Positions 54,669 through 59,372 of a stretch of DNA of 64,000 nt are shown piece by piece (the stretch's first letter is position 1; each line of letters starts with the position of its first letter). The stretch is from Tolypothrix sp. PCC 7910. Lineage in GTDB: Bacteria > Cyanobacteriota > Cyanobacteriia > Cyanobacteriales > Nostocaceae. The translations under genes were made by a program, and so were the position numbers. The notes beneath the pieces were generated by a model that ran no database searches, was not told the origin of the DNA, and saw only the letters and a program-made list of their open reading frames with translations. The DNA is taken from positions 4,961,501 through 5,025,500 of the forward strand of contig NZ_CP050440.1 in assembly GCF_011769525.1 (NCBI RefSeq), given 5' to 3'.

Positions 54669-55586
54669 CTATTTTTCTAACAGAGATAAGATGCGATCGC
54701 TCAATGCCCAACGATTAGAATTAGGCCTAATCCAGCATTTTTCTGCTTCATTGAAATTGCGTTGATGTATCAGTGCCGACAGCAAGTCTTTTTTCTGCTG
54801 TTCGTTGAGTTGGGATACCATCTTTTGGGCTGCACGCAATGCACAAGTCTGCTCGAAGGCTGTTTCTGAGTTATTAATAATACTTAGCACTGCATAAAAA
54901 TAATTTGCATCTCCCGACCATTCCGTTATGGAAAGTCCTAGCAATCGCTTACCTTGGTCGTTAGATTTGAGGAGATTATTTACTTCTGATGCAGAAAAAT
55001 TCACCTCCGGAGCTAGCGCCCGCATTCGTCCTGCAATAGACTCCATTTCAAATGTGCGTTTTGCTCCCGATGGTAGGGAACTTCTGAGTTCTTTATAGCG
55101 TTGACTTAAACGCTCAATTTGTTGACGTGCTTCCGAGCCAGGAACCGTTGATGCGTAGGCTTTCTGCCATTCATGACGTATTTGCCGCATTTCTAGCTGC
55201 TGTTGTGGTGGCGCAACATCTTCTGCTAGCTTGGTCTGCTCAATCAAATATCCTAAGGTATCTCCCGTTAGAGACTGTAGCATTGGCATCATACTAGAGC
55301 CAGTAATTTCACCTGCAGGTGTCTTCACTGCTCCGCCAGTCAAAGCAAATATCTTGAGGATAGAAGGTAACCAAGTTAGAGCTAAAAAAATAGCTGTTGT
55401 ATTTGTAACTTGAAATTTAAAGGTTAATTTTTCCCCACCATTGACTTGAAAGGTGCTGAGGAGAATAAAAATACTACTAATAATTAACCAGTTTTTCGGG
55501 ATGTGAATAATTCGCTTTAGCAGCCAATCTACTGCTTCACGAGAAATCTGGTTGTTACCAGGCTCTTTATCTGATTTGCTATTCAT
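54669..55586 (-). CDS. Membrane-anchored hypothetical protein
   Basis: 305 residues, unrecognised. Two hydrophobic segments near the N-terminus (WLIISSIFILLSTFQV, about 33 to 48, and TTAIFLALTWLPSILKIFAL, about 63 to 82) should form a membrane hairpin. Residues about 110 to 175 are charged and helical (QQQLEMRQIRHEWQKAY, RQQIERLSQRYKELRS), probably a coiled coil. The last 110 residues are helical repeats (LLGLSITEWSGDANYFYAVLSII...), HEAT- or TPR-like. A membrane-tethered helical adaptor located beside the toxin-like RES gene. Whether it belongs to that module is unknown. ATG start. Confidence 0.7.
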   Translation of the reverse strand: MNSKSDKEPGNNQISREAVDWLLKRIIHIPKNWLIISSIFILLSTFQVNGGEKLTFKFQVTNTTAIFLALTWLPSILKIFALTGGAVKTPAGEITGSSMMPMLQSLTGDTLGYLIEQTKLAEDVAPPQQQLEMRQIRHEWQKAYASTVPGSEARQQIERLSQRYKELRSSLPSGAKRTFEMESIAGRMRALAPEVNFSASEVNNLLKSNDQGKRLLGLSITEWSGDANYFYAVLSIINNSETAFEQTCALRAAQKMVSQLNEQQKKDLLSALIHQRNFNEAEKCWIRPNSNRWALSDRILSLLEK

Positions 55587-55766: not shown

Positions 55767-56429
55767 TTACCAATATGGAATTACTTCTAAATTATTCTCT
55801 TCCGCTGCTTTTAAGATTGGCCCGCGTAATAACTCGTGTTTTAGCGGCAATACATTGCCTGGATTACAACTAAAGAAATGTTCTGCACGCTCATAAATAG
55901 CGATCGCATCTTCGTTATTATGGGCATTACAATAAATTAACCCGTGAATTTGGGAATAAATTTCTGGCTGCTCATAAAAATAACGTGACCAAGCTTGGCT
56001 AAGACCACGCTTTTCTGTCTTGGCGAGAGTAGCTTCATTTGCACCAGCGCGCATGGCTCCGTTTCCGCGCAAATCGAGTAATTTTAAATCTCTTGTCGCA
56101 GTCACAATCGCAATCAGCTGGTCAGTAATTTCAATACAACCAATATCACCAAAAACTTCCACTAGACAACTCGAAAGTTTTGGGGCAATGTAGTATATAC
56201 CGCGTTCCTGGTCATTGGCTGGTTGGTAGTCCAATGGCTCGTAGGACAAACTGGGAAAATTGCCGCGATGATGATCGAAGCGAAAAAGTGGCCCCCACTC
56301 CCGAAAAGTCAGCGCAGTCGTGCCAAAGTCTGTGCGGAAAATCCGAAAAAATTCCGTTCCCTTCTTTAAAATATGAAATTTTGGTGTTGGCCTGCCAAAG
56401 CTAGGTGGCGGGACAATGAGTTTGACCAC
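55767..56429 (-). CDS. RES-domain protein, NAD+ phosphorylase toxin candidate
   Basis: 220 residues, RES family. The known members of res-xre toxin-antitoxin pairs degrade NAD+ and stop growth. Visible core: FFRIFR (Arg29), the RFDHHRG segment, GIYYIAPKLSSCLVEVFG with Tyr79 or Tyr80 and Glu91, and the later LLDLRG and GLIYCNAHNN segments. The GTG start is supported by GAGGAG nine bases upstream. Its likely antitoxin (MbcA/ParS-like) is the next gene upstream on the same strand, but the gap is 558 bp and filled with repeats, so co-transcription is doubtful. Some RES proteins are not toxins. Confidence 0.82.
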   Translation of the reverse strand: MVKLIVPPPSFGRPTPKFHILKKGTEFFRIFRTDFGTTALTFREWGPLFRFDHHRGNFPSLSYEPLDYQPANDQERGIYYIAPKLSSCLVEVFGDIGCIEITDQLIAIVTATRDLKLLDLRGNGAMRAGANEATLAKTEKRGLSQAWSRYFYEQPEIYSQIHGLIYCNAHNNEDAIAIYERAEHFFSCNPGNVLPLKHELLRGPILKAAEENNLEVIPYW

Positions 56430-56987
56430 CTTGATTACTCCTCATCTGGTTGACTGACAAAATGGGAATACTTGACCGCAAAAGTATGAAAGACAAAGGA
56501 TAAAGGATAAAAGATGAAACAACAATAAAAGTTTGCTCTGATTCGCTGGGATTTATCCATTAAGAAAATCAAAGCAAACCTACCGCCGTTGTGAGCCGCC
56601 TTTGATTTATAGGGTTTACTTCATCTTTTATGCTTTATACTTCTCCTGTCGGAGACGCTACATGTAGCTTGCTTCCCTATAGGGGTACAGCCTTCAGTTG
56701 AAGTTGCAGATTTTTACTGCCTCTGTAAACTAGTACATTAAAACTACATCTACAGAAAAATTCAAAAGTTGGCTACGTATTTCCGGACATTTTTATCTAT
56801 TCAAGTGTAGTCTGTGTAACTTTTGCCAGCCACTCAGATGATTTTTTGGCAAGATTTATACTTAAAGACTGAGAAAGCAGACGCGGAGGTAGAGATAGCA
56901 AAGACGCGAGGAATTTTCATTCTCCACGTCAAAGCGTCTCAACTGCTCCGCGTTGATTCTGATGCTCATTTTTTGATTGCAAGATGA
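56430..56987. other. Repeat-filled gap between RES gene and antitoxin-like gene
   Basis: No gene seen in 558 bases. It holds a copy of the 60-bp dispersed repeat and an AGACGCG-rich stretch with CGCGGAG (56884) and its complement CTCCGCG (about 56955). In typical res-xre operons the two genes overlap or lie a few bases apart. Confidence 0.6.
56641..56700 (-). repeat. Dispersed ~60-bp repeat, copy 2 (inverted)
   Basis: Reverse complement shares ordered blocks with the copy after fmt: CTGAAGG, TGTACCCCTA, AAGCAAGCTAC, AGCGTC, AGAAG. Lies between the RES gene and the antitoxin-like gene. Confidence 0.75.
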
Positions 56988-57602
56988 CTATAAAACTCCG
57001 ACAGTCCTAGCAGCAGCAATTACATCGTCTATCTGCCCAAACTTCAAAGCTTCGATGGGTGTTAGCCCATTTAAAGCGATGTTGGGTTTAGTTAGCCAAC
57101 TAATTTTTGATAAAGCAGGAACATTCAGAGCTTTTAAAACATCAGGTAGCCCAGCGATTACTCCATCTGGCCCCTCCGGATCGAATTGCCAGGTGGGAAA
57201 TTTCCAAACTCCGTTATCTTGAATGGCAATTAGGCTATTCTTTTTTAAGCGATCGTGTGGTGTCTGACGGGTCGTGTTCAACAAATCGGCTACTTGTGGT
57301 GCCGTTAATGAAGATTTAAGTAGTTCTTGTCTCCATTTAAAATTTTTCGTGAGGGCAGCCAGTTCTAATTTACTACGCTCCTCATCGCTGATTAGATTGG
57401 CACCAAGCTTGGCAGCAAAGTTGATTTCAGCTTGGGAATACTTTGGCTTGATATTAGTAGGCGTTAACCGTTCAGCTAAACATTTTATTTCCTCAGGTTG
57501 TAAGGAATTGAGATAATCCTGAAATTCTCTGGCGATTAGCTCTAGCGCTTGTTTCACATATTTTCCGGTAGGAGCGTCAATCGTGACGTTAATGCCGCTC
57601 AT
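56988..57602 (-). CDS. HTH protein with MbcA/ParS-like toxin-binding end, antitoxin candidate
   Basis: 204 residues. The central helix-turn-helix reads LTAPQVADLLNTTRQTPHDRLKKNSLIA, followed by WKFPTWQFDPEGPDGVIAGLPDVLKAL and a C-terminal PNIALNGLTPIEALKFGQIDDVIAAAR: the Y/FP.WQF...G.TP.E.L pattern of the Xre/MbcA/ParS antitoxin family, which binds RES toxins. The frame opens at GTG 57623, but the ATG at 57602 is directly preceded by AAAGGAGGG, so it is chosen. It should repress its own promoter, in the region shared with the NACHT gene. The N-terminal 60 residues are charged and helical. Confidence 0.8.
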   Translation of the reverse strand: MSGINVTIDAPTGKYVKQALELIAREFQDYLNSLQPEEIKCLAERLTPTNIKPKYSQAEINFAAKLGANLISDEERSKLELAALTKNFKWRQELLKSSLTAPQVADLLNTTRQTPHDRLKKNSLIAIQDNGVWKFPTWQFDPEGPDGVIAGLPDVLKALNVPALSKISWLTKPNIALNGLTPIEALKFGQIDDVIAAARTVGVL

Positions 57603-57804
57603 AATCCCTCCTTTGCCGATCACATAACATAATCTTCACTTCTTCATGTAAGAGATGTCAAATATCTAGATCTCTAGATTCGCACTCTCATGTATGATTT
57701 ACAATCATTCTTGAGCATGATTTGTGTATGACTTTTGAGTGATTTATGTATGATTTTACTTAAAAGTAGTAATATAATTAACAAAATCATTAGAGATAGA
57801 GGTA
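57603..57804. promoter_or_regulatory. Divergent control region with palindrome and direct repeats
   Basis: A 200-bp region between the antitoxin-like and HTH-NACHT genes. Palindrome ATCTAGA-TC-TCTAGAT at 57664-57679. Direct repeats TGTATGAYTT at 57691, 57725 and 57747. Both flanking proteins carry helix-turn-helix domains, so these are candidate operators. Confidence 0.5.
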
Positions 57805-59298
57805 ATGACTAGGCGATCGCTCCAAGCATCGGCTAAGGGAATTAGTAAGGCCGAAGCTGCGCTAATCCGTAATTCCTTGACACAGCAGGGGTTAGCGGGA
57901 GAACTAGGAATTAGCCGCCAGCCAGTTACCAAGTTTTTTCAAGGTAAACCAGTTGATCGCTATATCTTCGTGACAATTTGCGAAAAGCTGAATCTCAATT
58001 GGGAAGACATTATCATCTCCTCATCCTTCCCGGAGGTAGAACAGCCAGCCAGCGTTAGTCAGATGCAAAGTTTGGTGCAGATTGTCCGCGAAAAAGTCCA
58101 CGACAGTATTCAAAGGCGTTGTGGTGTGATGCGGGTGCTAGATATGGAACAGCCCAGAAGGTTGGATACTATCTACACTCAAGTCAATATTTGGCAACGA
58201 GTGAGTGGACGAAGGCGGCTGGATATTGCGGAGATATCGCGGAATTTTGAGCCAGGGAAGTATAACTGCTTTAACTTAGGTAGTTTACAACAACCCCGCC
58301 GACCTGCCTTAGAAGCCGTAGAAACCCACGATAAATTGATAATTTTAGGTAACCCAGGGACAGGCAAAACCATATTTTTAAAATGGTTAGCCATTCAGTG
58401 TAACTTAGGCGAGTATAAAGGCGATCGCGTCCCGATTTTTATTCATCTCAAAGACTTTGCAGAGGCGAGGGAGCAACCAAACTTATTAGAGTACATCACA
58501 GAACAGTTTGAAGAATGCGGCGTTGCTGTACCCAATGCAGTACTCAATCTTTTAACTGAGGGTTTAGCATTCGTTTTATTGGATGGGTTAGATGAAATTC
58601 AGGATGCAGATTTTGAACGAGTTGTAAGAGATATTCACAGGTTTACAACCAGATTTTATACTAATCGCTTTGTGATTACTTGTAGGGTAGCAGCACGCAA
58701 ATATATTTTTGAGCAGTTTACAGAAGTAGAAATTGCCGATTTTGATGAGCAGCAGATGACTGAGTTTGTTAGCAAGTGGTTTCGGGAAGAAGCACCCATA
58801 AAAGCACAATATGTTTTACACAAGCTGCAAGAAAATCAATCTCTGGAAGAGTTGGCAACTAATCCTTTATTGCTCACATTTTTATGTTCATTTTTTGCAG
58901 AAGTTGCAGATTTTGATCAAGCACAAATTTATCAAGAAGCATTGAATATATTAATTAAAGAATGGGATGAGCAACGTTATATTCAACGAGATGGAGGTAA
59001 TAAGCAAATTTCTTCACAGCTAATCGAAGAATTATTAAGTGAAATTGCCCAAAATACTTGGGACAGAAGAGAGTATTTTTTTAAACAAGAAGCGATTGTA
59101 CAGATGATTAGCGAATATATTCAGAACTTATCTGATGCTAAAAGAAACATCAATGTAGTGGAAATCGATAGCGCAGCGCTTCTCAAGTATATTCAAGTTC
59201 AAAATGGGTTATTAGTAGAGAGAGCAAAAAGGATTTACTCTTTTTCTCATATTACATTTCAGCAATTTTTGGCTGGTAAAAACAGAAGATACTTTTGA
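57805..59298 (+). CDS. HTH-NACHT NTPase, truncated after the NTPase module
   Basis: 497 residues. Residues about 15 to 70 are a helix-turn-helix (LTQQGLAGELGISRQPVTKFFQGKPV). A linker follows, then a NACHT NTPase: Walker A GNPGTGKT (182 to 189), Walker B FVLLDGLDEI (256 to 265), ITCR (291 to 294), NPLLLTFLC near 365, and the closing RIYSFSHITFQQFLAG. Full NACHT proteins normally continue after FSH.TFQEF with a sensor of HEAT, leucine-rich or other repeats. Here a stop comes nine residues later (KNRRYF), and a C-rich short repeat follows. Bacterial NACHT proteins include anti-phage defences. Either a stand-alone short form or a gene that lost its sensor. ATG start after AGAGGTA. Confidence 0.88.
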   Translation: MTRRSLQASAKGISKAEAALIRNSLTQQGLAGELGISRQPVTKFFQGKPVDRYIFVTICEKLNLNWEDIIISSSFPEVEQPASVSQMQSLVQIVREKVHDSIQRRCGVMRVLDMEQPRRLDTIYTQVNIWQRVSGRRRLDIAEISRNFEPGKYNCFNLGSLQQPRRPALEAVETHDKLIILGNPGTGKTIFLKWLAIQCNLGEYKGDRVPIFIHLKDFAEAREQPNLLEYITEQFEECGVAVPNAVLNLLTEGLAFVLLDGLDEIQDADFERVVRDIHRFTTRFYTNRFVITCRVAARKYIFEQFTEVEIADFDEQQMTEFVSKWFREEAPIKAQYVLHKLQENQSLEELATNPLLLTFLCSFFAEVADFDQAQIYQEALNILIKEWDEQRYIQRDGGNKQISSQLIEELLSEIAQNTWDRREYFFKQEAIVQMISEYIQNLSDAKRNINVVEIDSAALLKYIQVQNGLLVERAKRIYSFSHITFQQFLAGKNRRYF

Positions 59299-59372
59299 TG
59301 TAGTTTTAACTTCCCCCTGCTCCCTGCCCCTCTGCCTACAGAGTGATAGTATATTGTTTAGTTGGAAGTCCC

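Follow-up and report, generated by a model that had tools for sequence, protein, structure and literature searches.

MbcTA and ParST are RES-Xre type II toxin-antitoxin systems. NatR-NatT is another, in which the RES gene follows a gene of the Xre/MbcA/ParS type and the RES toxin, NatT, degrades NAD+ (PMC11535050, in excerpt). In Synechocystis sp. PCC 6803, the HTH-STAND protein XssQ is an activator of polysaccharide genes and in gel shifts binds AAGTTXXAC, single or in tandem (PMC8205485, in excerpt), and XssQ together with XssR was sufficient in another cyanobacterium (PMC13125312, in excerpt). NACHT proteins of clades other than the one described here defend against phages, and clade 14 of these bNACHT proteins has just a short C-terminal SNaCT domain (PMC12169576, in excerpt).

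We describe here a locus of Tolypothrix sp. PCC 7910, in an analyzed stretch of 64,000 nucleotides (hereafter the window), where a short HTH-NACHT gene and an Xre gene are divergent with 181 bp between them (Table 1). The short HTH-NACHT protein, a bacterial relative of the immune receptors of animals and plants, is probably a STAND transcription regulator of the XssQ kind that has lost its sensor and is dedicated to its own RES-Xre locus, a reading that draws on gene order, conservation, a repeat array, constraint and homology to XssQ as they appear from sequence comparison. The locus resembles the RES-Xre type II systems in that RES comes after an Xre/MbcA/ParS-type gene and in having a conserved box at the Xre promoter, but it has an extra divergent NACHT gene and an extra gene for a putative membrane protein, and in cassettes of this type RES starts 200–1093 bp past Xre in 26 of the 27 loci having both. 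Like XssQ, the window protein has an N-terminal HTH and a NACHT module; SGL_RS00265, which adjoins two response regulator genes and is taken as XssQ on account of that position, shares 33% identity with the window protein (residues 1–493). The XssQ sites are also like the array of the window in being tandem, about one or two helical turns apart and read towards the target gene: two Synechocystis xss genes carry AAGTTNNAC 73–106 bp before their start at a spacing of 12 or 23 bp, and the copies at other xss genes are single. XssQ differs in retaining a C-terminal region with NCH2, in its partners (a response regulator and a kinase) and polysaccharide targets (PMC8205485, in excerpt), and in its site sequence, AAGTTNNAC rather than the AARTCATRC cores of the window. 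With the bNACHT anti-phage proteins the window protein shares a central NACHT, while its N-terminal HTH, its end before any recognized C-terminal domain and its toxin-antitoxin pairing set it apart. That pairing, judged in a preliminary description of this DNA to be a new arrangement, was not found in searches of open-licence papers, and the available part of PMC3710099 does not report it.

Table 1. Features of the locus, and divergent STAND genes at other Xre-RES pairs (positions in the window unless another locus is named).
Feature	Position	Strand	Remarks
Cassette gene, putative membrane protein	54669–55586	−	305 aa; hydrophobic at ~26–44 and ~65–83, then helical part
RES-domain toxin gene	55767–56429	−	220 aa; PF08808 4e-8, over its cut-off
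Xre/MbcA/ParS-type antitoxin gene	56988–57623	−	211 aa; Xre_MbcA_ParS_C PF09722 1.8e-4, under its cut-off
Box TTGACATCTCTTACA	57647–57661	−	presumed Xre operator; overlaps TTGACA −35
Repeat array	57691–57756		11-bp-step units in 57718–57756 plus one unit 23 bp before; presumed HTH-NACHT sites
TATAAT, possible NACHT −10	57773–57778	+	last repeat would lie at the expected −35 place
Short HTH-NACHT gene	57805–59298	+	497 aa, ATG start; HTH ~residues 1–75, linker, NACHT 178–329 (PF05729, E 7e-18), helical/winged-helix part to ~490
Divergent STAND gene, genome G051	L162 6969–10666
Divergent STAND gene, genome G180	L189 6245–10437
Divergent STAND gene, genome G076	L190
Divergent STAND gene, genome G064	L197 3–4283

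The preliminary description had an HTH and NACHT protein ending nine residues after FSHITFQQF, back to back with an antitoxin-like gene, and this is what we see: after FSHITFQQF come the residues LAGKNRRYF and then the stop codon. The protein has both Walker A (GNPGTGKT, 182) and DGLDE (260), with the D[GS]LD motif intact. The N-terminus scored just under the HTH_26 cut-off (E 4e-4, 21.0 bits against 22); HTH_3 was found at E<=0.01 in 11 of 14 N-termini scanned, that of the window included, and a profile of the 14 matched HipB antitoxin structures at E 0.001. A domain scan of the window protein gave no NCH2. The window genome (8.76 Mb) holds 30 NACHT matches at E<=0.001, and the open frame of the window gene (506 aa) compares with 746–846 aa for five other matches in that genome (E<=1e-60). 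These five paralogues extend 227–352 aa beyond the part matched by the window protein, and NCH2 lies in the extension of all four tested. The 6-kb locus of one paralogue, of 772 aa, includes a stretch resembling a response regulator. Predicted structures were poor (mean pLDDT 49 for the NACHT protein and 45 for the 305-aa protein, from 8 close sequences each).

The pairing with a RES/antitoxin unit proposed earlier is real. Xre is held by 27 of 217 genomes of the family, and the identical 27 hold the gene for the 305-aa protein (both E<=1e-15); the short NACHT gene is divergent from Xre in 25 of these, the other two (G334 and G335) having Xre-RES with no adjacent NACHT gene. RES was found in 26 of the 27; it was not found in the two stretches read of G009, whose 305-aa gene is on a different contig, and in G319 RES and the 305-aa gene are ~14 kb away from Xre. 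An extra locus in Tolypothrix sp. FACHB-123 (L064) brings the short NACHT proteins to 26, with lengths of 480–609 aa and identities to the window protein down to 43%; every one has Walker A and a frame free of internal stops. A dehydrogenase and/or methyltransferase gene, as beside the window cassette, was present in 23 of 28 loci in the stretches read (the 26 with short NACHT plus G334 and G335), which suggests that the cassette occupies a fixed chromosomal site. In an order-wide sample of 243 genomes, Xre relatives occurred in 26 and 305-aa relatives in 6, the window genome being in both sets; BLAST with the window proteins gave no Xre or RES in the 10–16 kb read around the 305-aa relatives of the 5 other genomes, among which the G047 locus sits at a contig end.

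The Xre of the window can be aligned over its length with the Xre of pairs that lack NACHT, and the conserved residues of its RES are common to NACHT-less Xre-RES pairs; in several relatives the Xre ORF starts 7 codons later. The gap between Xre and RES in the window is 558 bp (56430–56987), as against most NACHT-less pairs of the order, which overlap or almost touch. Given this wide spacing in nearly all the cassettes, RES may have a promoter of its own in the gap; before RES we found no array core and just one weak box (G011). A separate sensor had been proposed, possibly among the neighboring genes, and we recognized none: no cassette gene is a candidate with a recognized sensor domain, the remaining one encoding a putative membrane protein. 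Its 305-aa product gave nothing below E 0.14 against solved structures, and its Pfam hits to Sfi1_C (22.8 bits, cut-off 21) and Knl1_RWD_C (under cut-off) were taken as chance helical matches.

By alignment, and in the four paralogues tested from the window genome, full-length relatives have a C-terminal region that closes with NCH2. All 26 short proteins lack the middle of this region, and all fall in a single clade (support 90/79; 88% of 200 bootstrap trees). The earliest branch, G327 (609 aa), has lost the middle of the region but keeps its start and roughly half of NCH2, G027 retains just the beginning, and a ten-member group of 554–608 aa lacks the middle and retains varied remains of the end. 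In G011, NCH2 is weak. Thirteen proteins including that of the window (480–509 aa) and, separately, that of G028 stop straight after the SFSH..F motif. The acid after DGLD is replaced by Q, R or A in 6 of the 26 (G006, G001, Tolypothrix, G009, G318, and G317), so the ATP-driven switch may be lost in those six. A lost sensor still visible in relatives was looked for downstream, and searches with 31 C-terminal queries (tblastn, E<=0.01) gave no remnant, the stretch covered being 2 kb past the gene at 25 loci and 579 bp at the 26th. Between the two possibilities raised at the outset, a truncated gene and a minimal form, the stable minimal form is supported, and a recent frameshift or assembly artefact is rejected in view of the 26 stop-free short frames in one clade with no remnant in the downstream stretches searched. 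A C-rich stretch does follow the stop in the window (59310–59339), as the preliminary description had it, yet it is missing in G007, G002, and G004, whose NACHT proteins stop at the same place.

By contrast with these frames, the G308 gene is split (L198 5285–7606), a 518-aa HTH-NACHT ORF being followed after 21 bp by an NCH2 ORF. C-terminal loss is not unique to the cassette: at least G308, G282:C430, G283, G427, G376, and G294 are short or cut too, and among the matches listed as short or cut frames, G391 and G110 lie at contig ends. Fourteen frames were below 620 aa, 13 of them cassette members; the fourteenth, G028:C13, stops 126 bases short of a contig end. The NACHT tree and the Xre-RES tree agree in outline. 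G334 and G335 fall inside the cassette clade of the latter, beside G027, G327, and G028 (98/95), which makes loss of NACHT from these two genomes the simpler reading.

Loss of the C-terminal region was accompanied by a shift of constraint to the HTH. Across the five closest genomes (that of the window, G002, G003, G004, and G007; six of ten pairs computed), dN of the short NACHT gene was 0–0.005 in residues 1–85, which hold the HTH, 0.023–0.043 in NACHT and 0.042–0.096 in residues 336–490. The HTH again had the lowest dN in more distant genus pairs (0.026–0.069 in three). The full-length 772-aa paralogue of the same genomes (10 of 10 pairs, one orthologue set) showed the reverse: dN was 0.005–0.044 in the HTH, 0.005–0.019 in NACHT and 0.003–0.030 in residues 336–490, and the HTH exceeded residues 336–490 in every pair. 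The short NACHT thus conserves its HTH over the winged-helix part and the paralogue does the opposite, which points to regulation. A second set, of five full-length proteins, did not consist of orthologues, dS being saturated in most pairs, and decides nothing on this matter, its two closer pairs conflicting: the HTH was the most divergent part in one, and near-identical with a divergent rest in the other. Gene-wide dN/dS of the short NACHT was 0.13–0.40 (15 pairs), and that of the HTH 0–0.12 (ten pairs).

The divergent promoter carries two kinds of site. Four AARTCATRC cores, read towards Xre, lie 133, 111, 100, and 77 bp before the Xre start in the window, and an invariant GTAAGAGATGTC together with a repeat array was present in all 25 aligned intergenic regions (the alignment leaves out G285, with 624 bp). 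The best period was 11 or 22 bp in 25 of 26 cassette arrays and reached p<=0.05 in 22 (100 shuffles each), the statistics being weak in four loci. At that level, arrays of period 11/22 occurred in 3 of 179 control upstream regions, a comparison in which the Fisher value overstates the difference because the 26 loci are related. In the 8.76 Mb of the genome, the exact array pattern of the window gave three overlapping matches, all in this intergenic region; with one mismatch allowed it gave 19 elsewhere, as against 11 for a backward control. Of 22 NACHT-less Xre promoters, one showed such an array, in an unrelated sequence, and at the Xre promoters of G334 and G335 the box is two-armed and a tandem array is absent. 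The box itself, the invariant GTAAGAGATGTC, is presumed to be the Xre operator. With up to two mismatches, it occurred in two copies at 8 of the 22 NACHT-less Xre loci (32–39 bp apart), in one at 6 and in none at 8, while 24 of the 26 cassette loci have exactly one, G327 has one plus a weak one and G285 has none within 330 bp. A box TTGACATCTCTTAC is found at the box position of the window and at the Xre promoters of L107, L108, L117–L119, L122, L124, L125, and L132, and it appears to be an operator shared by the Xre-RES genes of cyanobacteria.

Tandem repeats of ~9–11 bp (or double that) and varying sequence also lie upstream of full-length HTH-NACHT genes (among them L028, L053, L056, L035, and L001). 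Such arrays reached p<=0.05 in 9 of 31 upstream regions, with periods of 9–11 or 19–21, and 6 of 179 controls matched with periods of 9–11 or 18–22; the excess is only suggestive, given that the period range was picked after seeing the data, and tandem repeats of any period are frequent (36 of 179 controls). Autoregulation through such repeats may be general among full-length HTH-NACHT genes.

If the short protein is a regulator of its own locus, the HTH would occupy the row of sites in the divergent promoter (181 bp), roughly one for each helical turn, with the NACHT module letting several copies assemble side by side on the array. DNA binding, assembly, the direction of regulation and the action of the toxin are what we infer. 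The bound regulator would most likely activate the Xre side (Xre, perhaps also RES and the putative membrane protein), a direction read from position alone, the array matching XssQ sites in position and orientation, and would limit its own transcription. Xre would sit on its own box over the −35 and repress, and the two proteins would jointly set the level of antitoxin against an NAD+-consuming RES toxin. Alternatively, the sites of the array could be those of Xre, alone or shared with HTH-NACHT. Should the model be true, NLR-like STAND receptors would be tied to NAD-consuming RES toxins through plain transcription control, and the cassette would offer a natural experiment on what a NACHT protein does once its sensor is gone. 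An operator of 181 bp with two kinds of site makes the model directly testable.

The preliminary description saw the gene as a possible defense gene. In that case the locus might be an abortive-infection module, the short NACHT detecting an invader or its effect and freeing the RES toxin to drain NAD+, and phage defense by NACHT proteins of other clades (PMC12169576, in excerpt), the breakdown of NAD+ by a RES toxin (PMC11535050, in excerpt) and the repeated presence of STAND genes beside Xre-RES pairs (see below) all speak for it. We consider it unlikely, however, since both the C-terminal sensor and a recognized effector domain are absent, the candidate defense model PDC-S60 is matched only in part (residues 173–480), and the shared dehydrogenase and/or methyltransferase neighbors in 23 of 28 loci suggest a fixed chromosomal site. 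Moreover, the homologue with laboratory data, XssQ, is a metabolic regulator and transcription activator (PMC8205485, in excerpt), and the array and the constraint on the HTH indicate regulation, so the claim of a defense gene is not supported; a bacterial NACHT gene need not mean phage defense.

The short NACHT could also be a third toxin-antitoxin partner that holds or releases the Xre-RES complex and acts on proteins rather than DNA. Its pairing with Xre in 25 of 27 genomes and the parallel inheritance of NACHT and Xre-RES are what such a partner would show, but the strongest constraint is on the HTH, and the array accompanies the NACHT gene and is absent without it, so that this reading appears improbable. 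That the gene has no role today and is what slow decay has left of a full-length HTH-NACHT gene is the least credible account and very improbable: its stepwise C-terminal loss, the faster change in residues 336–490 and the missing acid after DGLD in 6 of 26 agree with decay, but not the 26 of 26 stop-free frames with Walker A at identities down to 43%, nor the dN/dS values gene-wide and in the HTH.

STAND genes also lie at other Xre-RES pairs. In G051, a full-length HTH-NACHT-NCH2 gene and a distantly related Xre-RES pair (28% identity each) are transcribed away from each other, and an 11-bp array lies in the region that separates them. With the G051 RES as query, 25 loci were found in 20 of 243 genomes, with Xre at 23, and a STAND gene was the divergent neighbor in 4 of these 23 (G051, G180, G076, and G064). 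The G180 gene has an HTH with NB-ARC and is followed by a separate, overlapping TPR ORF; that of G076 is a relative without HTH; and that of G064 has an HTH-like N-terminus (by eye), NA-iREase1, a NACHT-like stretch and WD40. This recurrence is only suggestive, given that the search started from G051, that G076 is related to G180 and that the flanks of several loci are short. A broader scheme, which we put forward tentatively, would be a recurrent three-part cyanobacterial system: a divergent Xre-RES operon would be driven by a STAND protein that in most cases has an HTH, and the sensor arm would vary. In the cassette, the receptor would be an immune-receptor module reduced to a DNA-binding oligomer on an 11-bp array and acting as a promoter switch for an NAD-consuming toxin. 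The sensor arm might then, as a possible but doubtful assignment, be none in the Nostocaceae cassette, NCH2 in G051, WD40 in G064 and a separate TPR gene in G180. At the 22 window-type Xre loci without NACHT, where the neighbor considered was the longest ORF in the 1.5 kb preceding Xre, no divergent Walker A gene was seen (L135 was not judgeable). At L119, L123, L124, and L126, a gene with a Walker A-like motif lies directly upstream of Xre on the same strand.
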